A stretch of DNA of 56,546 nucleotides from Pseudomonadota bacterium (lineage in GTDB: Bacteria > Pseudomonadota > Gammaproteobacteria > Burkholderiales > Burkholderiaceae_C): positions 3,308 to 59,853 of the forward strand of contig JAKCDM010000006.1 of assembly GCA_021841865.1 (NCBI GenBank). Direction: 5' to 3'. This document shows, one piece after another, positions 8,247-32,381 of this stretch (the first letter of the stretch is position 1; every line of letters begins with the position of its first letter). The notes beneath the pieces were generated by a model that was not told where the DNA came from, made no database searches, and worked only from the letters and a program-made list of their open reading frames with translations. The position numbers and the translations under genes were made by a program.

Positions 8247-8414
8247 CGCTTTCTCCGACGAATGATGCAACATCGTGTAACCATGCTACGGGCCTGGGGC
8301 GCCCGGCACCAGGCAAGGCCATGGCTGCGTCGAGGGCAAGCCGACAAGAGCTGCTGCGCCAGGTCGAGGCGCCCGCACTTTCGGCGGAGCGCGACTTGCT
8401 CGCGGCTATGATGA

Positions 8415-8640
8415 ACAGGTTGGTGCTTGCACGAGCCGCCCGCGGCGCGTGCAGTCAAACGGGAAACAGGGAGGGCGCCTCGTTCCAGGTGCCCGGGCCT
8501 GTGCTGCCCCCGCAACGGTCAACGGCATGGCGCGTCGCCTGAAGGCGCGCGCCATCAGCCGGACGAACATGCCACTGGGCCCGTCAAGGGCCTGGGAAGG
8601 CCGTCCGGATCGCCGCCAGCCCGGATACCGGCCAACACGC
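8415..8640 (+). ncRNA. Cobalamin riboswitch
   Basis: Adenosylcobalamin-responsive leader. The conserved core is readable in order: the 5' P1/P2 region around GGTTGGTGC (8418-8428), TCAAACGGGAAACAGG, GTGCTGCCCCCGCAACGGT (about 8501-8519), CCACTGG and GGGAAGG, then the B12-box counterpart GCCGCCAGCCCGGATACCGG (8612-8631) and GCCAAC closing P1. It precedes a TonB receptor of the BtuB type, so B12 should shut off receptor synthesis. Boundaries are good to about 10 bases. Confidence 0.93.
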
Positions 8641-8798
8641 TGGGAACAGGCCTTCCGGGAGGGGACGGCATGTTCGGCGGTCCGCGTCCGCGGTCCGCCC
8701 TGGACCCGTCACGACCCGTTGTCGTGCCGGTGGTTTCCGGCGTTGTCTGAGTCCCGTGCGGGGTGTCACGGTTCGCTTCTCAGCCGCTGGAAACCAAC
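8641..8798 (+). promoter_or_regulatory. Riboswitch expression platform / btuB leader
   Basis: Leader between the aptamer and the receptor start. It contains GGCGGTCCGCG-TC-CGCGGTCCGCC (about 8673-8700), two arms that pair with one T-T mismatch, and a further GACCCG/GTCGTG-rich segment. No U-run follows, so control of translation or Rho-dependent termination is more likely than intrinsic termination. Inference from sequence only. Confidence 0.4.
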
Positions 8799-10697
8799 AT
8801 GTTCCGAACCAGAATGTCGCGTCTCGCCGCCCTCGTGGGCGGTGCCTGCTGTCTGCATGCCCGGGCGCAGGCCCAGGAGTCCGCAACCCAGGTCCTGCCA
8901 CCCGTCGTGGTGTCGGCATCGACCTTCGCCCAGCCTCTGTCGCAGGCGCTGCCCAGCACCAGCGTGATCACCCACGAACAGATCGTGCAGTCGGGCGCGC
9001 GCAACCTGACCACGCTGCTGCAGCGCGTGGCGGGCGTGCAACTGACTTTCAACGGCGGCCCCGGCCAGACCTCCACCACCTTCGTGCGCGGCTTCGGCAG
9101 CACCGACATGGGCGTGCTGGTGCTGCTCGACGGCGTTCCGCTTGGCGCGCAGGACGATTCCGGCAGCACCGGCTACCTGCAGAACCTGAGCACCGACCAG
9201 ATCCAGCGCATCGAGATCGTGCGCGGCAACGTGTCGGCGATCTACGGCTCGGGCGCCATCGGCGGCGTGATCCTGATCACCACGCGCGAAGGCAGCAGCA
9301 AGCCGCGCGCATCGGTGTCGGCGATGGCCGGCAGCCAGGACACGACGGCGCTGTCGGCCGACGCCAGCGGCCAAATCGGGCGCACGCGCGTGCAGGCCGG
9401 CTGGAGCCGCTATGTCACGCAGGGGATGCCGTCGCTGAGCCCGCCGCTGGCTGCGGCCTACGGCGCCGGCAGCGGCACCGACGGCTATCGCAACGACACG
9501 CGCAACGCGTCGATCGTGCAGCAGCTCGCCGCCGGACACAGCGTCGGGCTGAGGGCCTTTCGCAGCGACGGTGTCTACGACTACTCCAACGGCAGCGGCA
9601 GCGGCCAGACCCTGCAGCAGCTGGTGCAGCTGTTCAGCGACGACCGCATCGCGAAGCACTGGAGCTCGCGCCTGAGCCTTTCGCAGCAAAGCGTGGACAA
9701 CAGCAACTGGTCGTCGGGCAGCTACAGCGGAGCCGCGCGCACCCGGGTGCAGATGGTCCAGTGGCGCAACGTGGTGCGTCTCGACACGCACTGGACCCTC
9801 ACCGGCGGCGCCGACTGGCAGCACCAGTCCATCGAGACCGACGGCCCCGGCGCCTTCCCGAACGTCACGCGCAACGCCCGCGCGGTGTTCGCCGGAATCA
9901 ACGGGCTGTTCGGCGCCAACCAGCTGCAATTCAACCTGCGCCACGACAGCGTGGACGGGCTGAGCGGCCAGGACACCGGATACCTCGGCGCATCGCACGC
10001 GCTGGGCGGCGGCTTCAAGGTGCTGGCCAGCTACTCCACGGCGTTCAACGCGCCGCCGCTGGGCTACCTGTACTCGGACGTCCCGAACTACTACATCGAG
10101 GCCAACCCGGCGCTGCGCCCGGAGAAGGCGCATTCGAGCGAAGCCGGTCTGCAATGGCAACGCGGCGCCACGCTGCTGCGGGCGACGCTGTTCGATACCC
10201 GCATGACCGATGAATGGGTGTTCGGCAGCGATCCGGTCACCGGCATGTCGCAGTTCCAGAACATCGCCAGTTCGCGCACGCGCGGCGTGGAGCTGACCGG
10301 CAGCACGGCGTGGCAGGGCTGGCAGCTCGACGGCAACCTGACCCTGCAGCAGCCGGTCGACCTGAGCCAGCCCGGGCACCCCACCTTGCAGCGCCGCGCG
10401 CGCAGCATGGCCAACCTGCAGCTCAGCCACGACTGGCACGGCGTGCTGCTGGGCGCAAGCGTGCACTACAGCGGACCGCGCCCGGACCTGGACTACGCGA
10501 ACTACCCGGCCACGCCGGTGGTGCTGGGCTCCTACACCACGGTCGACCTCAGCGCCGGCGGACGCCTGGCCCCGCAGTGGCACTGGAACGTGCATGTGCG
10601 CAACCTGTTCGACAAGGCCTACCAGACCGCCTACGGCTACAACCGAGCGCCCTTCGGCGTGTTCGTCGGCCTGAGCTGGCACCCGCCGGGCTGGTGA
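8799..10697 (+). CDS. btuB: TonB-dependent vitamin B12 receptor (BtuB-like)
   Basis: Outer-membrane receptor of 632 residues for cobalamin or related corrinoids. A signal peptide occupies about residues 1-26 (MFRTRMSRLAALVGG, then ARAQAQ). A TonB-box-like PPVVVSAS follows, then the plug (about 40-150: ITHEQIVQSGARNLTTLLQR, IRG-type FVRGFGSTDMGVLVLLDGVP, IEIVRGNVSAIYGSGAIGG) and a long beta barrel ending in a terminal Trp. The start at ATG 8799 gives a clean signal peptide; an upstream in-frame GTG at 8763 is possible. The cobalamin riboswitch directly upstream is the main evidence for substrate. Confidence 0.88.
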   Translation: MFRTRMSRLAALVGGACCLHARAQAQESATQVLPPVVVSASTFAQPLSQALPSTSVITHEQIVQSGARNLTTLLQRVAGVQLTFNGGPGQTSTTFVRGFGSTDMGVLVLLDGVPLGAQDDSGSTGYLQNLSTDQIQRIEIVRGNVSAIYGSGAIGGVILITTREGSSKPRASVSAMAGSQDTTALSADASGQIGRTRVQAGWSRYVTQGMPSLSPPLAAAYGAGSGTDGYRNDTRNASIVQQLAAGHSVGLRAFRSDGVYDYSNGSGSGQTLQQLVQLFSDDRIAKHWSSRLSLSQQSVDNSNWSSGSYSGAARTRVQMVQWRNVVRLDTHWTLTGGADWQHQSIETDGPGAFPNVTRNARAVFAGINGLFGANQLQFNLRHDSVDGLSGQDTGYLGASHALGGGFKVLASYSTAFNAPPLGYLYSDVPNYYIEANPALRPEKAHSSEAGLQWQRGATLLRATLFDTRMTDEWVFGSDPVTGMSQFQNIASSRTRGVELTGSTAWQGWQLDGNLTLQQPVDLSQPGHPTLQRRARSMANLQLSHDWHGVLLGASVHYSGPRPDLDYANYPATPVVLGSYTTVDLSAGGRLAPQWHWNVHVRNLFDKAYQTAYGYNRAPFGVFVGLSWHPPGW

Positions 10698-26944: not shown

Positions 26945-27062
26945 GGTGGGGGTTCCGGGGACGACGGGCGCGGTCCGCGGCGGACCATGATAAACACTCG
27001 CTGACGCGCACCGACCACCCAGGCCGCGTCTGGCATGTGAATTGCTACCGACGGATCTCGAG

Positions 27063-28979
27063 ATGACAGATTGCTGCTTTGTCCTGTTCGATCCCGTCGA
27101 CGCTCCGGCGCGCCTGCTGCAGGCGCCGTGCGAGCACTGGCTGGCCGACGACGACGAGCGGGCCCGGCACATGCCGCGCTGGCTCGAGGAGCAACTGCGC
27201 GCGGGCCGCGAGGTCGCGCTGTTCGCCGGCTTCGGCGCGGCCGCCGCGCTGGCCGACCTGGAGGTGCGCCAGCACCCCGGCTCGCCGCGCCTGGAAGCGC
27301 TGAGCTTCGACGAGGCACGCCCACTGCCCGACGACGCGGCCGTCGACGCGTGGCTGCGCGAACGCGTGCGCGAAAGCGGCCCCGAGGCCCCGGCGGGCCT
27401 TGCCGCATGGCGCGCGCAGTCGAGCCGCGGCGAATACGAGCAGGCGCTGCAATCCATCCTGCAACGCATCGCGGCCGGCGAGACCTACCAGGTCAACCAT
27501 ACCTTCACGCTGAGCGCGCGCGCCTTCGGACACCCGATCGCGCTGTACCTTGCGCTGCGGCGCGCGCAGCCCACCGCCTACCGGGCGCTTGCCCGGCTGC
27601 GCGGGCGCTGGGTGCTGAGCCTGTCGCCCGAGCGCTTTTTTCGCCTCGACCGCCAAGGGTGGATCGAGGTACGCCCGATGAAGGGCACGGCGCCGCGCCA
27701 TGACGATGCGCGCAGCGACGCCGAATCGGCCGCCTGGCTTCGCAACGACCCCAAGAACCGCGCCGAGAACCTGATGATCCTCGACCTGCTGCGCAACGAC
27801 CTCGGGCGCCTGGCGCGCCCCGGCAGCGTGCAGGTTCCGCGGCGCTTCGTGACCGAGCCTTATGCCACGGTCTGGCAGATGACCTCCACGGTGCGCGCGC
27901 GCCTGCGCGACGACGTCGACTGGGCGCAGTTGTGGCATGCGCTGTTTCCCTGCGGCTCGGTGGTCGGCGCACCCAAGCACCGCACCATGCGCATCATCCG
28001 GGAACTCGAGCCGCGGGCGCGCGGGCTCTACACCGGAGCCATCGGCTGGCTGCGGCCGGCTCCCGGCGGCGACGCCCCGGGAACTCCATGCGCGACACTG
28101 GGCGACTTCTCGGTGGCCATCCGCACGCTGGAGATCGACGCCGCGAAGCGCGGGCTGACGCGCGCCGCGCGCCTGGGGGTAGGCGGTGGCGTGGTCGCCG
28201 ACTCGACCCCTCGCGGGGAGTGGGACGAATGCTGGCTCAAGGCACGCTTCGCCACCAGCCTGGACCCCGGTTTCGGGCTGATCGAGACCTTCGCCGCGCA
28301 CTTCCCGACCCAGCGCGCGCGAATCGACGCGCATCTGCGCCGACTCGGCCGCTCCGCGCGCCATTTCGGCTTCGCCTTCGATCGCCACGCGCTGCTGCGC
28401 GCGCTGGCCGACGCGCACGCGGCGTGGCCGGGCGAGGCCGCCGGCGCGGGCGCCTGGCACCGGCGCACGCGCATCGAATTGCGCCACGACGGCAGCTTCG
28501 ACCTTCGTTGCGTGCCGCTGCCGGCGACGCCTGCGCGGGTCGACGTACTGCTGGCCGACGACGTGGTGCCCGACCCGGTGCTCGACTCCAACGACCCGCT
28601 GCTGCGTCACAAGACCACCCACCGCGAGCGCTACGACCGTGCCTTGCAGGCCTGCGAGCGCCTGGGCGCCTTCGATGCCCTGTTCTTCAACCAGCGCGGC
28701 GAGCTGTGCGAAGGCGCGCGCAGCAATGTGTTCGTGCGCCTGGACGGCCGCTGGTGGACCCCGCCTCTGCGCTGCGGGCTGCTGCCCGGCGTGGCGCGCG
28801 CGGCCCTGCTCGCCGACCCCGCGCTGGGCGCCGGCGAACGGGTGCTGCGACGCCAGGACCTGCTGCGGGCCCAGGCGCTGATGCTGAGCAACGGCGTGCG
28901 CGCGACGCTGGCCGCGACGCTGCGCGCCGCGCACGCAGGCGCAACGGGTCAGAACGGCGCCGGGCGCCCGATTCCGTAG
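27063..28979 (+). CDS. pabB: Aminodeoxychorismate synthase component I fused to aminodeoxychorismate lyase
   Basis: 638-residue two-enzyme fusion for the p-aminobenzoate branch of folate synthesis. The PabB part (about 1-390) has GETYQVNHTF, SLSPERFFRL, EVRPMKGTAPRH, NLMILDLLRNDLGR, PCGSVVGAPKHRTM and GLYTGAIGWL. The PabC part (about 400-625) is a PLP fold-type IV lyase opening FGLIETFAAH, with the PLP lysine in LRHKTTHRERYD and GELCEGARSNVF. ATG 27063 chosen; an in-frame TTG seven codons earlier is possible. Such fusions are common in betaproteobacteria. The 3' end overlaps the convergent GGDEF-EAL gene by 31 bases. Confidence 0.93.
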   Translation: MTDCCFVLFDPVDAPARLLQAPCEHWLADDDERARHMPRWLEEQLRAGREVALFAGFGAAAALADLEVRQHPGSPRLEALSFDEARPLPDDAAVDAWLRERVRESGPEAPAGLAAWRAQSSRGEYEQALQSILQRIAAGETYQVNHTFTLSARAFGHPIALYLALRRAQPTAYRALARLRGRWVLSLSPERFFRLDRQGWIEVRPMKGTAPRHDDARSDAESAAWLRNDPKNRAENLMILDLLRNDLGRLARPGSVQVPRRFVTEPYATVWQMTSTVRARLRDDVDWAQLWHALFPCGSVVGAPKHRTMRIIRELEPRARGLYTGAIGWLRPAPGGDAPGTPCATLGDFSVAIRTLEIDAAKRGLTRAARLGVGGGVVADSTPRGEWDECWLKARFATSLDPGFGLIETFAAHFPTQRARIDAHLRRLGRSARHFGFAFDRHALLRALADAHAAWPGEAAGAGAWHRRTRIELRHDGSFDLRCVPLPATPARVDVLLADDVVPDPVLDSNDPLLRHKTTHRERYDRALQACERLGAFDALFFNQRGELCEGARSNVFVRLDGRWWTPPLRCGLLPGVARAALLADPALGAGERVLRRQDLLRAQALMLSNGVRATLAATLRAAHAGATGQNGAGRPIP

Positions 28980-30427
28980 CCCTGCACGTAGTCGACGCCG
29001 ATCGCCCCCAGGCTGCGGCGCGCATCGTCGTGCTCGACAAACTCGGCCACGGTGCGAATGCCCATCACCTGCCCGATGTGGTGGATCGCCTCGACCATCG
29101 CGAAGGCCACCGGGTCGTGCAGCATGTCCTTGACGAAGGACCCGTCGATCTTGAGGAAATCCACCGGCAGGCGCTTCAGGTAGGCGAACGAGGACATGCC
29201 GGTGCCGAAGTCGTCCAGCGCGAAACGAAAGCCCTGCTCGCGCAGCAGCTCGATGCAGCGCAGCGCCTTGTGGAACTGCGACATCACCGCAGTCTCGGTG
29301 ATCTCGAAGCACACCCTCGAGGCCTGCACGCCAAGTCGCTCGCGCTCGCCCAGCACGAACTCGGCGAAGCGCTCGTCGCACAGGCTGGCCGCCGACAGAT
29401 TGATGCAGCACAGCGCCGGCGCATGCGGCGCAGCGCGCGCCAGGCGCTCGAACGCTGCACCGACCACCCAGCGGTCGATCGGGGTCATCATGCCGAAGCG
29501 CTCGGCCGCCGGCAGGAACTGCGCGGGAGAAAGGATTCGTCCCTGGTCGTCGAGCATTCGCAGCAGCAATTCCACATGCCTGGAATCGTCGCTGCCCGGC
29601 TGCGCCGGCGCGATGGGCTGCGCATACAGGCAAAGACGCCCCTGGTCGAGCGCCTCCTGGATGCGCGCCACCCACTGCAGCAGGCCGTCGCGCAATGCCA
29701 GTTCGGCGTCGCCGGGACGATGCAGCTGCGTGCGGTTGCGCCCATGCTCCTTGGCCAGCCCGCAGGCCGCCTCCGCGGCGTCCAGCGCGGCCGACGCCGC
29801 GCGCCAACCCGCGCCCAGCTCGACCACTCCGATGCTGGCGGCCATCGCGAAAGCGCGTGAACCGTGAACGAAGCGGCTCGACGCCAGTTCGACGCGAAGC
29901 TGGTCCGCGACGCGAAGCGCCTCGCCGGCCGGACACTCGGCAAGCAGCACGGCGAACTCATCGGCACCCAGGCGGGCCACCAGGTCTGCCTCCCGCAGGG
30001 ACTGCTGCAACAGCGCGGCGACGCGGCGCAACATGGCATCGCCCGCGTCGTGCCCGCAGGTCTGGTTGATCACGCGAAACTGATCGATGTCGGCGAACAG
30101 CAAGGCATGCGCCGGGCGCCCGAGGCAGCGCGTGAGGCGTTGCTCGAATTCGGCGCGATTGAGCAGCCCGGTGAGCGCATCGTGGCTTTGCTGCCAGCCC
30201 AGGCGCGCGGCCGTCTCGTGCGCGGTGCGCAGGTTGCGCACGATGCCGAGCGCGCCGCACGCCAGCACCAGCCACTCGCCGGCCTCGAGCCCCGGCCAGC
30301 TTGCGGCAAGACCCAGTCGCGGCATCCGCAGCGCTGCCAGCGCCGCCGCAACGCACAGCGCCCAGGGCCAGCTGTCGCGCAGCAAGCTGGCCGCCGCGGC
30401 CCGACGGGCATGTACGCGTTGCTCCAA
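28949..30427 (-). CDS. Membrane GGDEF-EAL protein (c-di-GMP turnover)
   Basis: 492 residues from a TTG at 30425-30427, preceded by GGAGG at six bases; the earlier GTG at 30508 lies inside a riboswitch. Two membrane helices (about 22-44 and 50-66) precede the catalytic domains. The GGDEF domain keeps FADIDQF, GHDAGD and the I-site RxxD (145-148), but the signature is GADEF (154-158). The EAL domain has ELL (286-288) plus INLS, FEITET, ALDDFGTG, LKIDG, AEFVEH and VQGYGIGRP, so phosphodiesterase residues look complete. It may both make and degrade c-di-GMP, or be mainly a phosphodiesterase. Confidence 0.9.
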   Translation of the reverse strand: MEQRVHARRAAAASLLRDSWPWALCVAAALAALRMPRLGLAASWPGLEAGEWLVLACGALGIVRNLRTAHETAARLGWQQSHDALTGLLNRAEFEQRLTRCLGRPAHALLFADIDQFRVINQTCGHDAGDAMLRRVAALLQQSLREADLVARLGADEFAVLLAECPAGEALRVADQLRVELASSRFVHGSRAFAMAASIGVVELGAGWRAASAALDAAEAACGLAKEHGRNRTQLHRPGDAELALRDGLLQWVARIQEALDQGRLCLYAQPIAPAQPGSDDSRHVELLLRMLDDQGRILSPAQFLPAAERFGMMTPIDRWVVGAAFERLARAAPHAPALCCINLSAASLCDERFAEFVLGERERLGVQASRVCFEITETAVMSQFHKALRCIELLREQGFRFALDDFGTGMSSFAYLKRLPVDFLKIDGSFVKDMLHDPVAFAMVEAIHHIGQVMGIRTVAEFVEHDDARRSLGAIGVDYVQGYGIGRPAPF

Positions 30428-30472
30428 GGATCGCCTCCGGTGAGTTCCGAGGGCGACCTTCCGACGGCATGG

Positions 30473-30489
30473 GCAGCCCGGAGGGCTGC
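30473..30489 (-). promoter_or_regulatory. Stem-loop between c-di-GMP aptamer and ribosome site
   Basis: GCAGCCC-TCC-GGGCTGC on the minus strand is a perfect 7-base stem with a 3-base loop, between the aptamer and the GGAGG of the GGDEF-EAL gene. It is a candidate part of the expression platform. No U-run follows, so translational control is more likely than intrinsic termination. Confidence 0.45.
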
Positions 30490-30509
30490 GCGCACCCGCC
30501 TGCCGCACA

Positions 30510-30595
30510 CGCCGGCAGCCCCGCTACCCTGGCGCCGCGCGCTGTAGGCCGGAAGCTTTGCGTCCCCGTCTTTCGACGGGTTTGCCCTCGAGTGT
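30510..30595 (-). ncRNA. Cyclic di-GMP-I (GEMM-I) riboswitch
   Basis: On the minus strand the sequence reads GGGCAAACC, then hairpin CCCGTC-GAAA-GACGGG with the GNRA tetraloop, then GACGCAAAGC, then CCGGCCTA, a variable stem, and GGGTAGCGGGGCTGCCGG. These are, in order, the conserved elements of the GEMM-I aptamer as in Vibrio Vc2. It lies 82 bases upstream of the TTG start of a GGDEF-EAL gene, so c-di-GMP would control an enzyme of its own turnover. The match rests on reading the consensus; boundaries are approximate. Confidence 0.88.
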
Positions 30596-30608
30596 GAAAC
30601 CGCTCACA
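30593..30608. promoter_or_regulatory. CRP-like inverted repeat
   Basis: TGTGA-AACCGC-TCACA is a perfect TGTGA-N6-TCACA dyad at the 5' edge of the c-di-GMP aptamer. It could bind a CRP/Vfr/Clp-type regulator near the transcription start. Part of it coincides with the 5' CAC of the aptamer consensus, so it may be partly coincidental. Confidence 0.3.
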
Positions 30609-30801
30609 GCCCCGTTCCCCAGGGGCGTGCACCAAGCGCCGGGTGCCGCGCACGCGCAAGGGCCGTGACAACCGGCTTGCTTATGGGCACGACGAACTCG
30701 GCGCGATCGGCAGCATACATGCCGCCTCGCGCCAGATCAATGCATGCGCCAGCCGAAGCGCGCCGCGAAATGCCGCGCAGATGCTGCGCAGATGCTGCTC
30801 T
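30609..30801. other. Intergenic region, promoter area of the GGDEF-EAL gene
   Basis: No gene recognised. This DNA must hold the minus-strand promoter of the riboswitch-led GGDEF-EAL gene, but I could not pick a convincing -35/-10 pair. A short GATGCTGCGCA/GATGCTGC direct repeat occurs near 30780-30798. Confidence 0.4.
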
Positions 30802-30929
30802 CAAGGAATCGCAGGGCCGCCCCAAGATTCCTTGACCCCCGCGGGGGGAGGCCGGGCAACGCCCGGCCCTGGGGGCAGTCTCACCGAATCGCAGGGCCGC
30901 CCCAAGATTCCTTGACCCCCGTGGGGGTG
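30802..30929. repeat. Tandem-like intergenic repeat, two 41-base copies with hairpins
   Basis: Two copies of a unit starting GAATCGCAGGGCCGCCCCAA and ending CCCCCGNGGGGG lie at 30806-30846 and 30886-30926, differing at one base. The first copy is bounded by a perfect inverted repeat CAAGGAATC/GATTCCTTG (30802-30810, 30826-30834). Each copy ends in a CCCCCGNGGGGG hairpin, and the spacer has GCCGGGC-AAC-GCCCGGC. The array ends at the pqqE stop codon, so it may act as the operon's transcription end. It looks like a dispersed intergenic repeat family, which one window cannot prove. Confidence 0.7.
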
Positions 30930-30930
30930 A

Positions 30931-32100
30931 TCAGAACGGCCGACCCAGGCGGCGCGACTCCTGCGGGTTGCGAAACACCAGCGGCTGCTCCACGGCGCCG
31001 CCGGCCTGGGCCTTGAGCACCGCTTGCTGGACCCGCGCGTGCTGCGGCGACTTGTCGCACACGGGGTCGGCGGCCTCGGCGTCGCCGGCCAGCATGTAGG
31101 CCTGGCAGCGGCAGCCGCCGAGGTCCTGGTGCTTTTCGTCGCAGGAACGGCAGGGTTCCTTCATCCACGCCGTGCCACGGTAGCGCGCGAAGGCCGGCGA
31201 CTCGTACCAGGCATGCTGCAGCGAGGCCTGCCGCACGTCGGGAAACTCCAGCCCGGGCAGCATGCGCGCGGTGTGGCAGGGAAGCGCCAGGCCGTCGGGG
31301 GTGACCGTGAGGAACACGTTGCCCCAGCCGTTCATGCACTTCTTCGGGCGCGTCTCGTAATAGTCCGGCACCACGTAGAAGATGCGCATCGAGTCGCCCA
31401 GGCGCTCGCGCCACTGGCGCGTGCACTCCTCGGCGCGCTCGAGCTGCTCGCGCGATGGCAGCAGGTGGTCGCGATTCACGTGCGCCCACGAGTAGTACTG
31501 CGAGTTCGCCAGCTCCAGGTACTCGGCGCCGAGCTCGGCGGCCATGCCGATGATGCGGTCGATGTGGTCGATGTTCATGCGGTGCACGACCACGTTCATG
31601 ACCATCGGCCAGCCATTGGCCTTGATCATGCGCGCCACGCGCTGCTTGAGCTCGAAGGTCCGGGTGTGGGAGAGAAAATCGTTGAGCTCCGCGGTCGAGT
31701 CCTGGAAGGACAGCTGCACATGGTCCAGCCCGGCCGCGCGCAGCGCCGCCGCACGCTGCTCGGTGAGCCCCACTCCGGAAGTCAGCAGGTTGGTGTAGAA
31801 GCCCAGGCGGTGGGCCTCGGCCACCAGCAGCTCGAGATCGTCGCGCATCAGCGGCTCGCCACCGGAGAAGCCGCACTGCACGGCTCCCAGCTCGCGCGCC
31901 TCGCGCAATACCCGCAGCCAGTCCTCGGTGCCCAGTTCCTCGCCAGCCTGCTCGTAGTCCACCGGGTTGAAGCAGAACACGCAATGCAGCGGGCAGCGGT
32001 AGGTGAGCTCGGCCAGCAGCCACAGCGGCGGTCCCGGCCGCGGCGACGCATCGTCGGGCCCGTCGGTCGCATGCATCGCCGATTCGCCGCCGGGGATCAC
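30931..32100 (-). CDS. pqqE: PQQ biosynthesis radical SAM enzyme PqqE
   Basis: Radical SAM enzyme that forms the Glu-Tyr carbon-carbon bond in PqqA, the first committed PQQ step. 389 residues from a GTG at 32100. The radical SAM cluster motif Cx3Cx2C is at Cys36, Cys40 and Cys43 (ELTYRCPLHCVFC), followed by the SGGEPL motif. The SPASM region with auxiliary clusters has CMNGWG, LPCHTARML, CRSCDEKHQDLGGCRCQAYM and DPVCDKSPQH. GGAG five bases before the GTG, and the GTGA overlap with pqqD (32097-32100), support this start. Confidence 0.96.
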   Translation of the reverse strand: MIPGGESAMHATDGPDDASPRPGPPLWLLAELTYRCPLHCVFCFNPVDYEQAGEELGTEDWLRVLREARELGAVQCGFSGGEPLMRDDLELLVAEAHRLGFYTNLLTSGVGLTEQRAAALRAAGLDHVQLSFQDSTAELNDFLSHTRTFELKQRVARMIKANGWPMVMNVVVHRMNIDHIDRIIGMAAELGAEYLELANSQYYSWAHVNRDHLLPSREQLERAEECTRQWRERLGDSMRIFYVVPDYYETRPKKCMNGWGNVFLTVTPDGLALPCHTARMLPGLEFPDVRQASLQHAWYESPAFARYRGTAWMKEPCRSCDEKHQDLGGCRCQAYMLAGDAEAADPVCDKSPQHARVQQAVLKAQAGGAVEQPLVFRNPQESRRLGRPF

Positions 32101-32381
32101 ACCCACTCCAGCCAGCTCTGGCGAGTGGCGATCTGCAGGAAATCGCGCACGTCGCCGCCGAGATCGTCGACCCCGAAGGTGTGTTCGAGCTCGTCGATGA
32201 TCTGCTGCACCGACCGGACCCCGTCGCAACGCTTCATGATCTCGCCCGCGCTCTGGTTGAGCTTGACCATGCCTTCCGGGTACAGCAGCACCCAGGACTG
32301 CTGGGCCTGCTCCCATTGCAGGCGGAAGCGGGGCTGCACCCGCGGCAGTCGGCTGTCTTCGGGTTCGGCGTGCGCGTTCAT
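32097..32381 (-). CDS. pqqD: PQQ biosynthesis peptide chaperone PqqD
   Basis: 94-residue RiPP recognition element that binds PqqA and presents it to PqqE. Family features are [40 protein letters not shown] and the C-terminal winged-helix strand region ([20 protein letters not shown]). It overlaps pqqC upstream (ATGA at 32378-32381) and pqqE downstream by four bases, so C-D-E are translationally coupled. It is a stand-alone protein, not the PqqCD fusion of Methylobacterium. Confidence 0.96.

Follow-up and report, generated by a model that had tools for sequence, protein, structure and literature searches.

A conserved c-di-GMP-I riboswitch before the gene of an RbdA-like, predicted phosphodiesterase in four Thiomonas species

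Background

GEMM RNAs were first found in front of certain genes for cyclases and phosphodiesterases (PMC12564702), and a direct loop from cyclic di-guanosine monophosphate (c-di-GMP) to a phosphodiesterase through RNA is described in PMC6366702 as occurring 'rarely'. The present report concerns a locus of this kind on a 56,546-nucleotide (nt) stretch of contig JAKCDM010000006.1 (assembly GCA_021841865.1), hereafter referred to as the window, in which a c-di-GMP-I (GEMM-I) riboswitch aptamer on the minus strand lies directly upstream of a gene for a GGDEF-EAL protein resembling the phosphodiesterase RbdA. Judged from the sequences, this is a real c-di-GMP-I riboswitch, conserved before the gene of a putative RbdA-like phosphodiesterase in four Thiomonas species. 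Since the literature already places GEMM RNAs before the genes of turnover enzymes, the pairing is known in kind, with an uncommon target; in the literature consulted, nothing on a Thiomonas c-di-GMP riboswitch turned up.

Several described systems provide the closest comparisons. The Vc2 RNA of Vibrio cholerae is described as a translational riboswitch in which the P1 helix is key to switching (PMC9262584), its mechanism being called unknown in 2016 in PMC4744006, which names G20, A47 and C92 as its ligand contacts; it controls VC1722/tfoY and not a c-di-GMP turnover enzyme, and in this it differs from the RNA of the window. For the class I c-di-GMP riboswitches of C. difficile, uniform OFF behaviour is reported (PMC6200980). 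PdeL of E. coli, an autoregulated trigger phosphodiesterase, has its expression lowered by c-di-GMP, giving positive feedback (PMC5052742), which is the logic that would also hold here if the riboswitch were OFF with ligand; PdeL, however, is a transcription factor acting on its own promoter, whereas in the window sensing would fall to the leader of the mRNA.

On the side of the protein, PA0861 is RbdA (PMC7825114), a phosphodiesterase of P. aeruginosa enhanced by guanosine triphosphate and organised as PAS-GGDEF-EAL. A GGDEF-EAL construct of RbdA without PAS has phosphodiesterase and no cyclase activity according to that source, which also records that a PAS-containing construct showed both activities in the hands of other workers. 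The protein of the window has the GGDEF-EAL core and the EAL catalytic residues in common with RbdA, but carries no detected PAS domain, has the signature GADEF and possesses an N-terminal segment of only about 60 residues.

Methods

The source assembly consists of 212 contigs (computed figures: 92% complete, 5.52% contaminated), and the genome is inferred by kinship to be that of a Thiomonas species. Comparisons within the genus were performed on 28 species-level Thiomonas genomes including the source genome, while the wider survey covered 100 genomes: the source genome, 27 others of the same genus, 32 others of the family and 40 of the order. Riboswitches were searched for using cmscan against Rfam 15, in which the gathering score of RF01051 is 35 bits. 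The DNA downstream was examined for all 62 aptamers recovered, up to about 4.5 kilobases (kb) and less at contig ends; the aptamers of the window and of the three orthologs were followed for about 1.5 kb, most of the rest for about 2.5 kb. GGDEF and EAL domains, but not HD-GYP domains, were searched for in this DNA with profiles built from 14 orthologs. The four orthologs compared (window and three Thiomonas) are not independent of one another.

Results and discussion

The aptamer

The covariance model of RF01051 is matched over its full length on the minus strand (Table 1), which confirms the c-di-GMP-I riboswitch proposed there by a first-pass annotation made from the sequence alone. All the core motifs listed by that annotation are present, and its coordinates (30510-30595) mark the right place, off by one from those of the model (30596-30511). 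The aptamer has the ligand-contact bases, the GAAA tetraloop and the P2/P3 architecture in common with the RF01051 family, and stands apart in preceding the gene of a predicted c-di-GMP phosphodiesterase. It is the single c-di-GMP-I match in a search of the whole source genome. An outer extension of P1 comprises 5 base pairs (bp) in the window and is weaker in the orthologs.

The window and the three orthologs carry G, A and C, respectively, at the positions equated with G20, A47 and C92 of Vc2, on what we take to be the Vc2 numbering when it is carried over to the Rfam positions. In GEMM-I RNAs an A at the position of G20 goes with cyclic GMP-AMP (cGAMP) and a G with c-di-GMP; because a G stands there in the window, c-di-GMP is the fitting ligand, its binding is predicted, and a cGAMP riboswitch was rejected. 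The spacing of 27 from this G to the A is equal to that in Vc2 and Vc1 (values from PMC4744006).

Table 1. Coordinates of the aptamer, the leader elements, the enzyme gene and the adjacent genes in the window
Feature	Position	Strand	Basis or remark
c-di-GMP-I (GEMM-I) riboswitch aptamer	30511..30596	-	RF01051, 76.4 bits, E 2.8e-13, positions 1-87 of 87
G equated with Vc2 G20, ligand contact	30586	-	spacing and Vc2 numbering
A equated with Vc2 A47	30559	-	spacing and Vc2 numbering
C equated with Vc2 C92	30515	-	Vc2 numbering
Outer P1 5' arm CACAC	30592..30596	-	sequence; pairs with GTGTG 30510-30506
Outer P1 3' arm GTGTG	30506..30510	-	sequence
7-bp hairpin GCAGCCC-TCC-GGGCTGC	30473..30489	-	exact in sequence
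Candidate switching strand GCCCTCGG	30447..30454	-	complementary over 8 bp (one G-U) to aptamer 30591-30584
Start-region hairpin, AAGGTCGCC (30460-30452) with GGCGATCCTT (30435-30426), one bulged base	30426..30460	-	sequence and modelled fold
Shine-Dalgarno GGAGG	30434..30438	-	sequence; invariant in four orthologs
GGDEF-EAL protein gene, RbdA/PA0861-like putative phosphodiesterase	28949..30427	-	TTG start 30427-30425; 492 amino acids
GGDEF domain, residues 81-232	29732..30187	-	Pfam, E 2.9e-33
Degenerate GGDEF signature GADEF	29968-29954	-	motif position
RxxD (READ) I-site-like motif	within GGDEF domain	-	upstream of GADEF
EAL domain, residues 255-489	28961..29665	-	Pfam, E 3.3e-63
Convergent gene, chorismate-binding and aminotransferase class IV, PabB/PabC-like fusion	27042..28979	+
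Upstream gene, radical SAM/SPASM protein, PqqE type	30931..32316	-	PqqE name by interpretation

The enzyme

Both domains of the GGDEF-EAL protein annotated directly downstream of the aptamer are recovered by Pfam. Its TTG start, 83 nt past the aptamer, is plausible and the best available, with GGAGG 6 nt upstream and GTG starts at the corresponding place in the orthologs (76, 76 and 82 nt past the aptamer; n = 3); an alternative, longer in-frame GTG at 30508 would start two bases past the aptamer. The EAL site is intact, as had been claimed: the residues that we take to be catalytic (ELL, N, E, DD, K, E, Q) are complete and identical on alignment with RbdA, being the E of ELL, the N of INLS, the E of FEITE, the DD, the K of KIDGS, the E of AEFVE and the Q of QG. 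Among solved structures, PA0861 (5xgb) matches the protein best (E 7.3e-135, over residues 58-492).

The GGDEF domain presents a different picture. An intact GG(D/E)EF cyclase signature is missing from the window protein, which reads GADEF where the three orthologs read GGDEF, a point absent from the first-pass annotation; the RxxD motif (READ) is kept. No Pfam family beyond GGDEF and EAL, PAS included, was found in the protein at an E-value of 0.001. Because PAS is undetected and the GGDEF signature is degenerate, the protein is likely to be a net phosphodiesterase, as predicted from its sequence, and a bifunctional cyclase/phosphodiesterase was rejected as first choice on the same two grounds. 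The membrane location assigned earlier is plausible only, the best 19-residue Kyte-Doolittle means being 1.54 and 1.31.

Conservation and rarity of the pairing

A protein search of the 28 Thiomonas genomes gave some match at 1e-50 in 24 of them, with identities of at least 64% in only four (100, 70, 66 and 64%), the next best being 45% (G017). The aptamer lies directly upstream of the gene in all four close orthologs (G000, G026, G004 and G010). At least one c-di-GMP-I match was found in 12 of the 28 genomes, so that in most of the genus this gene is missing or the aptamer is put to use elsewhere. Ten distant orthologs of other genera (L034-L043, 47-50% identity) showed no c-di-GMP-I match in their flanks, the scan having covered these ten and not L044-L049. 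PAS is present in the aptamer-less orthologs L034, L035, L041 and L042 (Pfam) and in L044; among the four aptamer-bearing proteins it occurs only in the FB-6 ortholog (L031), with a gap or a remnant at its place in L032 and L033.

The survey of 100 related genomes returned 62 aptamers at or above the gathering score. GGDEF and EAL stand together directly downstream of four of them, all four being the Thiomonas orthologs; at L061 a GGDEF frame follows about 0.8 kb downstream of the aptamer, behind another reading frame. Pfam scans of 10 of the other downstream proteins identified, among others, chemotaxis receptors, a subtilase and a DUF1631 protein, together with a response regulator of the PilZ kind and one class III nucleotide cyclase that carries ankyrin repeats.

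Some further aptamers of the survey are recorded here in their own right. A second c-di-GMP-I type occurs in six other Thiomonas genomes (L122, L123, L124, L125, L127, L129, L051); its 5' flank ends in TTTGGC or CTTGGC, and the protein encoded after it is large, of low similarity, and lipoprotein-like at its N-terminus (LAGCGGGG); of two members scanned with Pfam, one gave a weak beta-helix match and nothing else was matched. In two c-di-GMP-I matches, L141 (G083) and L057 (G092), simple indexing places an A at the position of G20, and by the rule given above this suggests that they sense cGAMP; the L141 aptamer stands before the gene of a class III adenylate/guanylate cyclase that has ankyrin repeats. 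Several aptamers of the order (e.g. L121 and L144) precede similar proteins, that of L121, the one scanned, being DUF1631 (E 8.6e-184), and this placement may tie the DUF1631 family to c-di-GMP.

The leader and the level of control

Few parts of the linker between aptamer and start codon are as well conserved as the flank of the Shine-Dalgarno sequence. The hexamer GCCCTC occurs twice in the leader of the window, and the copy that forms part of the candidate switching strand (30454-30449) is invariant in all four orthologs, where it lies 10-11 nt ahead of the Shine-Dalgarno sequence; complementarity of this strand to the 5' strand of the aptamer extends over 8 bp in the window, 9 bp in L009, 9 bp in L031 and 6 bp in L033. 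The start-region hairpin takes in a portion of the Shine-Dalgarno sequence, extends over the first two start-codon bases and shares GCC with the switching strand.

Neither a terminator-like site nor a sigma-70-like promoter, the one promoter type scanned for, was found in 30400-31000. Because no terminator-like site is present and the aptamer is close to the start, control at translation initiation is likely. Translational control had been proposed earlier from a 7-base hairpin of the platform together with the TTG start; the hairpin is real and exact in the window but lies where the ortholog alignment is variable and broken by gaps, and is not conserved.

Proposed mechanism and sign of the loop

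Since the switching pairing and the start-region hairpin share bases, a switch between them is possible. We lean, with confidence that is evenly balanced, towards an autoregulatory loop in which a c-di-GMP riboswitch in the mRNA leader of the RbdA-like phosphodiesterase acts on translation and is OFF with ligand. In the absence of c-di-GMP, the 5' strand of the aptamer would be captured by the switching strand just before the Shine-Dalgarno sequence, and this capture would prevent the inhibitory start-region hairpin. With ligand bound, the aptamer would retain its 5' strand, and the freed GCCC would allow the hairpin to form over the Shine-Dalgarno sequence and the start codon; c-di-GMP would in this way lower its own phosphodiesterase, a positive feedback. 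In the modelled folds, the switching pairing has a probability of 0.81 in the window and 1.00, 1.00 and 1.00 in the orthologs when the transcript ends just past the strand. When the two folds are forced, the start codon is more open in the alternative fold than in the aptamer fold at all six lengths that include it in the window, and likewise at six of six lengths in L031. The OFF behaviour reported for the class I riboswitches of C. difficile also speaks for this reading, which we hold at about middling confidence. The negative feedback put forward in the first-pass annotation is not established, as modelled start exposure disagrees among the orthologs.

A number of results weigh against the OFF mechanism. 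The modelled switching helix drops to 0.00 in the window from +84, where the start-region hairpin takes over, and with increasing length it is mostly lost in two orthologs (L009 and L033) and varies in the third (L031); the mechanism would thus need a kinetic, co-transcriptional decision. In the longer window transcripts the aptamer fold itself is less favourable than the free ensemble by 10-14 kcal/mol, in a model that omits tertiary contacts and ligand, so that any switch would be kinetic. In L009 the start is less exposed in the alternative fold at five of six lengths, with Shine-Dalgarno exposure likewise reversed. L033 is mixed: the start is less exposed in the alternative fold at five of six lengths, and the Shine-Dalgarno sequence is more exposed in it at the two shortest start-containing lengths. 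Forcing the aptamer hardly changes the mean Shine-Dalgarno exposure in any of the four. Capture of the aptamer strand (0.90 in the window, 0.98 in L009, 0.54 in L033 and 1.00 in L031) was equalled by 12, 3, 12 and 0 of 200 dinucleotide-shuffled linkers, respectively, and the duplex energies were matched in 116, 1, 191 and 2 of 1000 controls. Covariation is thin, with one compensated pair (C-G to U-A) and one broken (A-A, in L033); the minimum-energy fold of the 216-nt leader is not unusually stable against shuffles (z -0.66), and folding of GC-rich RNA is unreliable. In view of this z-score, the flat exposure and the disagreement among orthologs, folding of the leader was given up as a guide to the sign. 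A general rule that the GEMM-I 5' strand is captured downstream was also dropped: among seven leaders of the other Thiomonas type, a complement of at least 7 bp was present in three and none in four.

The same parts could work with the opposite sign, c-di-GMP raising its own phosphodiesterase in a homeostatic negative feedback, which we regard as possible though somewhat doubtful. Induction of a degrading enzyme by its end product is the usual homeostatic logic, and L009, and in part L033, show the start and the Shine-Dalgarno sequence more exposed in the modelled aptamer fold, while the models of the window and L031 lean the opposite way and the invariant GCCCTC strand would have no evident role in an ON switch. 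An ON-type GEMM RNA is known from pilM, a cGAMP member (PMC9262584), and lowering c-di-GMP reduces the output of the Vc1 reporter (PMC4744006).

An effect of the riboswitch on transcription or on the stability of the RNA, such as Rho-dependent termination, in place of one on translation initiation is improbable. A GC-rich leader and hairpins without a T-run would suit such control; against it stand the lack of an intrinsic terminator-like site, the distance of only 76-83 nt between aptamer and start in all four orthologs and the well conserved Shine-Dalgarno flank. Very unlikely indeed is an aptamer that binds its ligand with its effect lost, or that is not co-transcribed with the gene: the missing sigma-70-like promoter and the failure of folding to give a robust ligand effect would fit, but the aptamer core and the ligand contacts are kept in all four orthologs while the flanks diverge. 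A broader view, that of a Thiomonas lineage in which the riboswitch was gained, PAS was then lost in three of four species and the cyclase signature was lost in this one, with an RNA sensor replacing a protein sensor and a c-di-GMP-repressed phosphodiesterase making c-di-GMP bistable through its own mRNA, is offered as a speculation and considered unlikely.

Gene neighbourhood

The end of the convergent PabB/PabC-like gene overlaps the end of the enzyme gene, and the same arrangement is seen in L033, the only one of seven loci (L031-L035, L041 and L085) in which the PabB-like gene was found. The PqqE-like gene lies 334 nt before the aptamer; a conserved operon with pqq genes was rejected, as PqqE and PqqB queries matched nothing in the same seven loci. 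Between the PqqE-like gene and the aptamer, a 49-nt element that contains an inverted repeat (TCAAGGAATC...GATTCCTTGA) is present in two copies 80 nt apart, at 30799-30847 and 30879-30927. Its 21-nt core has nine occurrences in the genome (at most two mismatches), in three cases as pairs about 80 nt apart, against none for a reversed control, and the element looks like a small dispersed repeat. Elsewhere in the window, a Cobalamin riboswitch (RF00174, 57.3 bits) at 8407-8650 on the plus strand is followed by an open reading frame of 644 amino acids (8763-10697), to judge by its sequence probably a TonB-dependent (BtuB-type) receptor; the arrangement is ordinary.

Conclusion

With 31 EAL and 43 GGDEF matches, some of them partial, the source genome is rich in c-di-GMP enzymes, and the only c-di-GMP-I aptamer found in it sits before this one gene. 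A direct loop from c-di-GMP to a phosphodiesterase through one RNA is uncommon in the sample surveyed, and if the riboswitch is OFF with ligand, the resulting positive feedback could stabilise a state of high signal. The locus offers a compact setting in which to ask if loops of this kind damp the signal or lock it.

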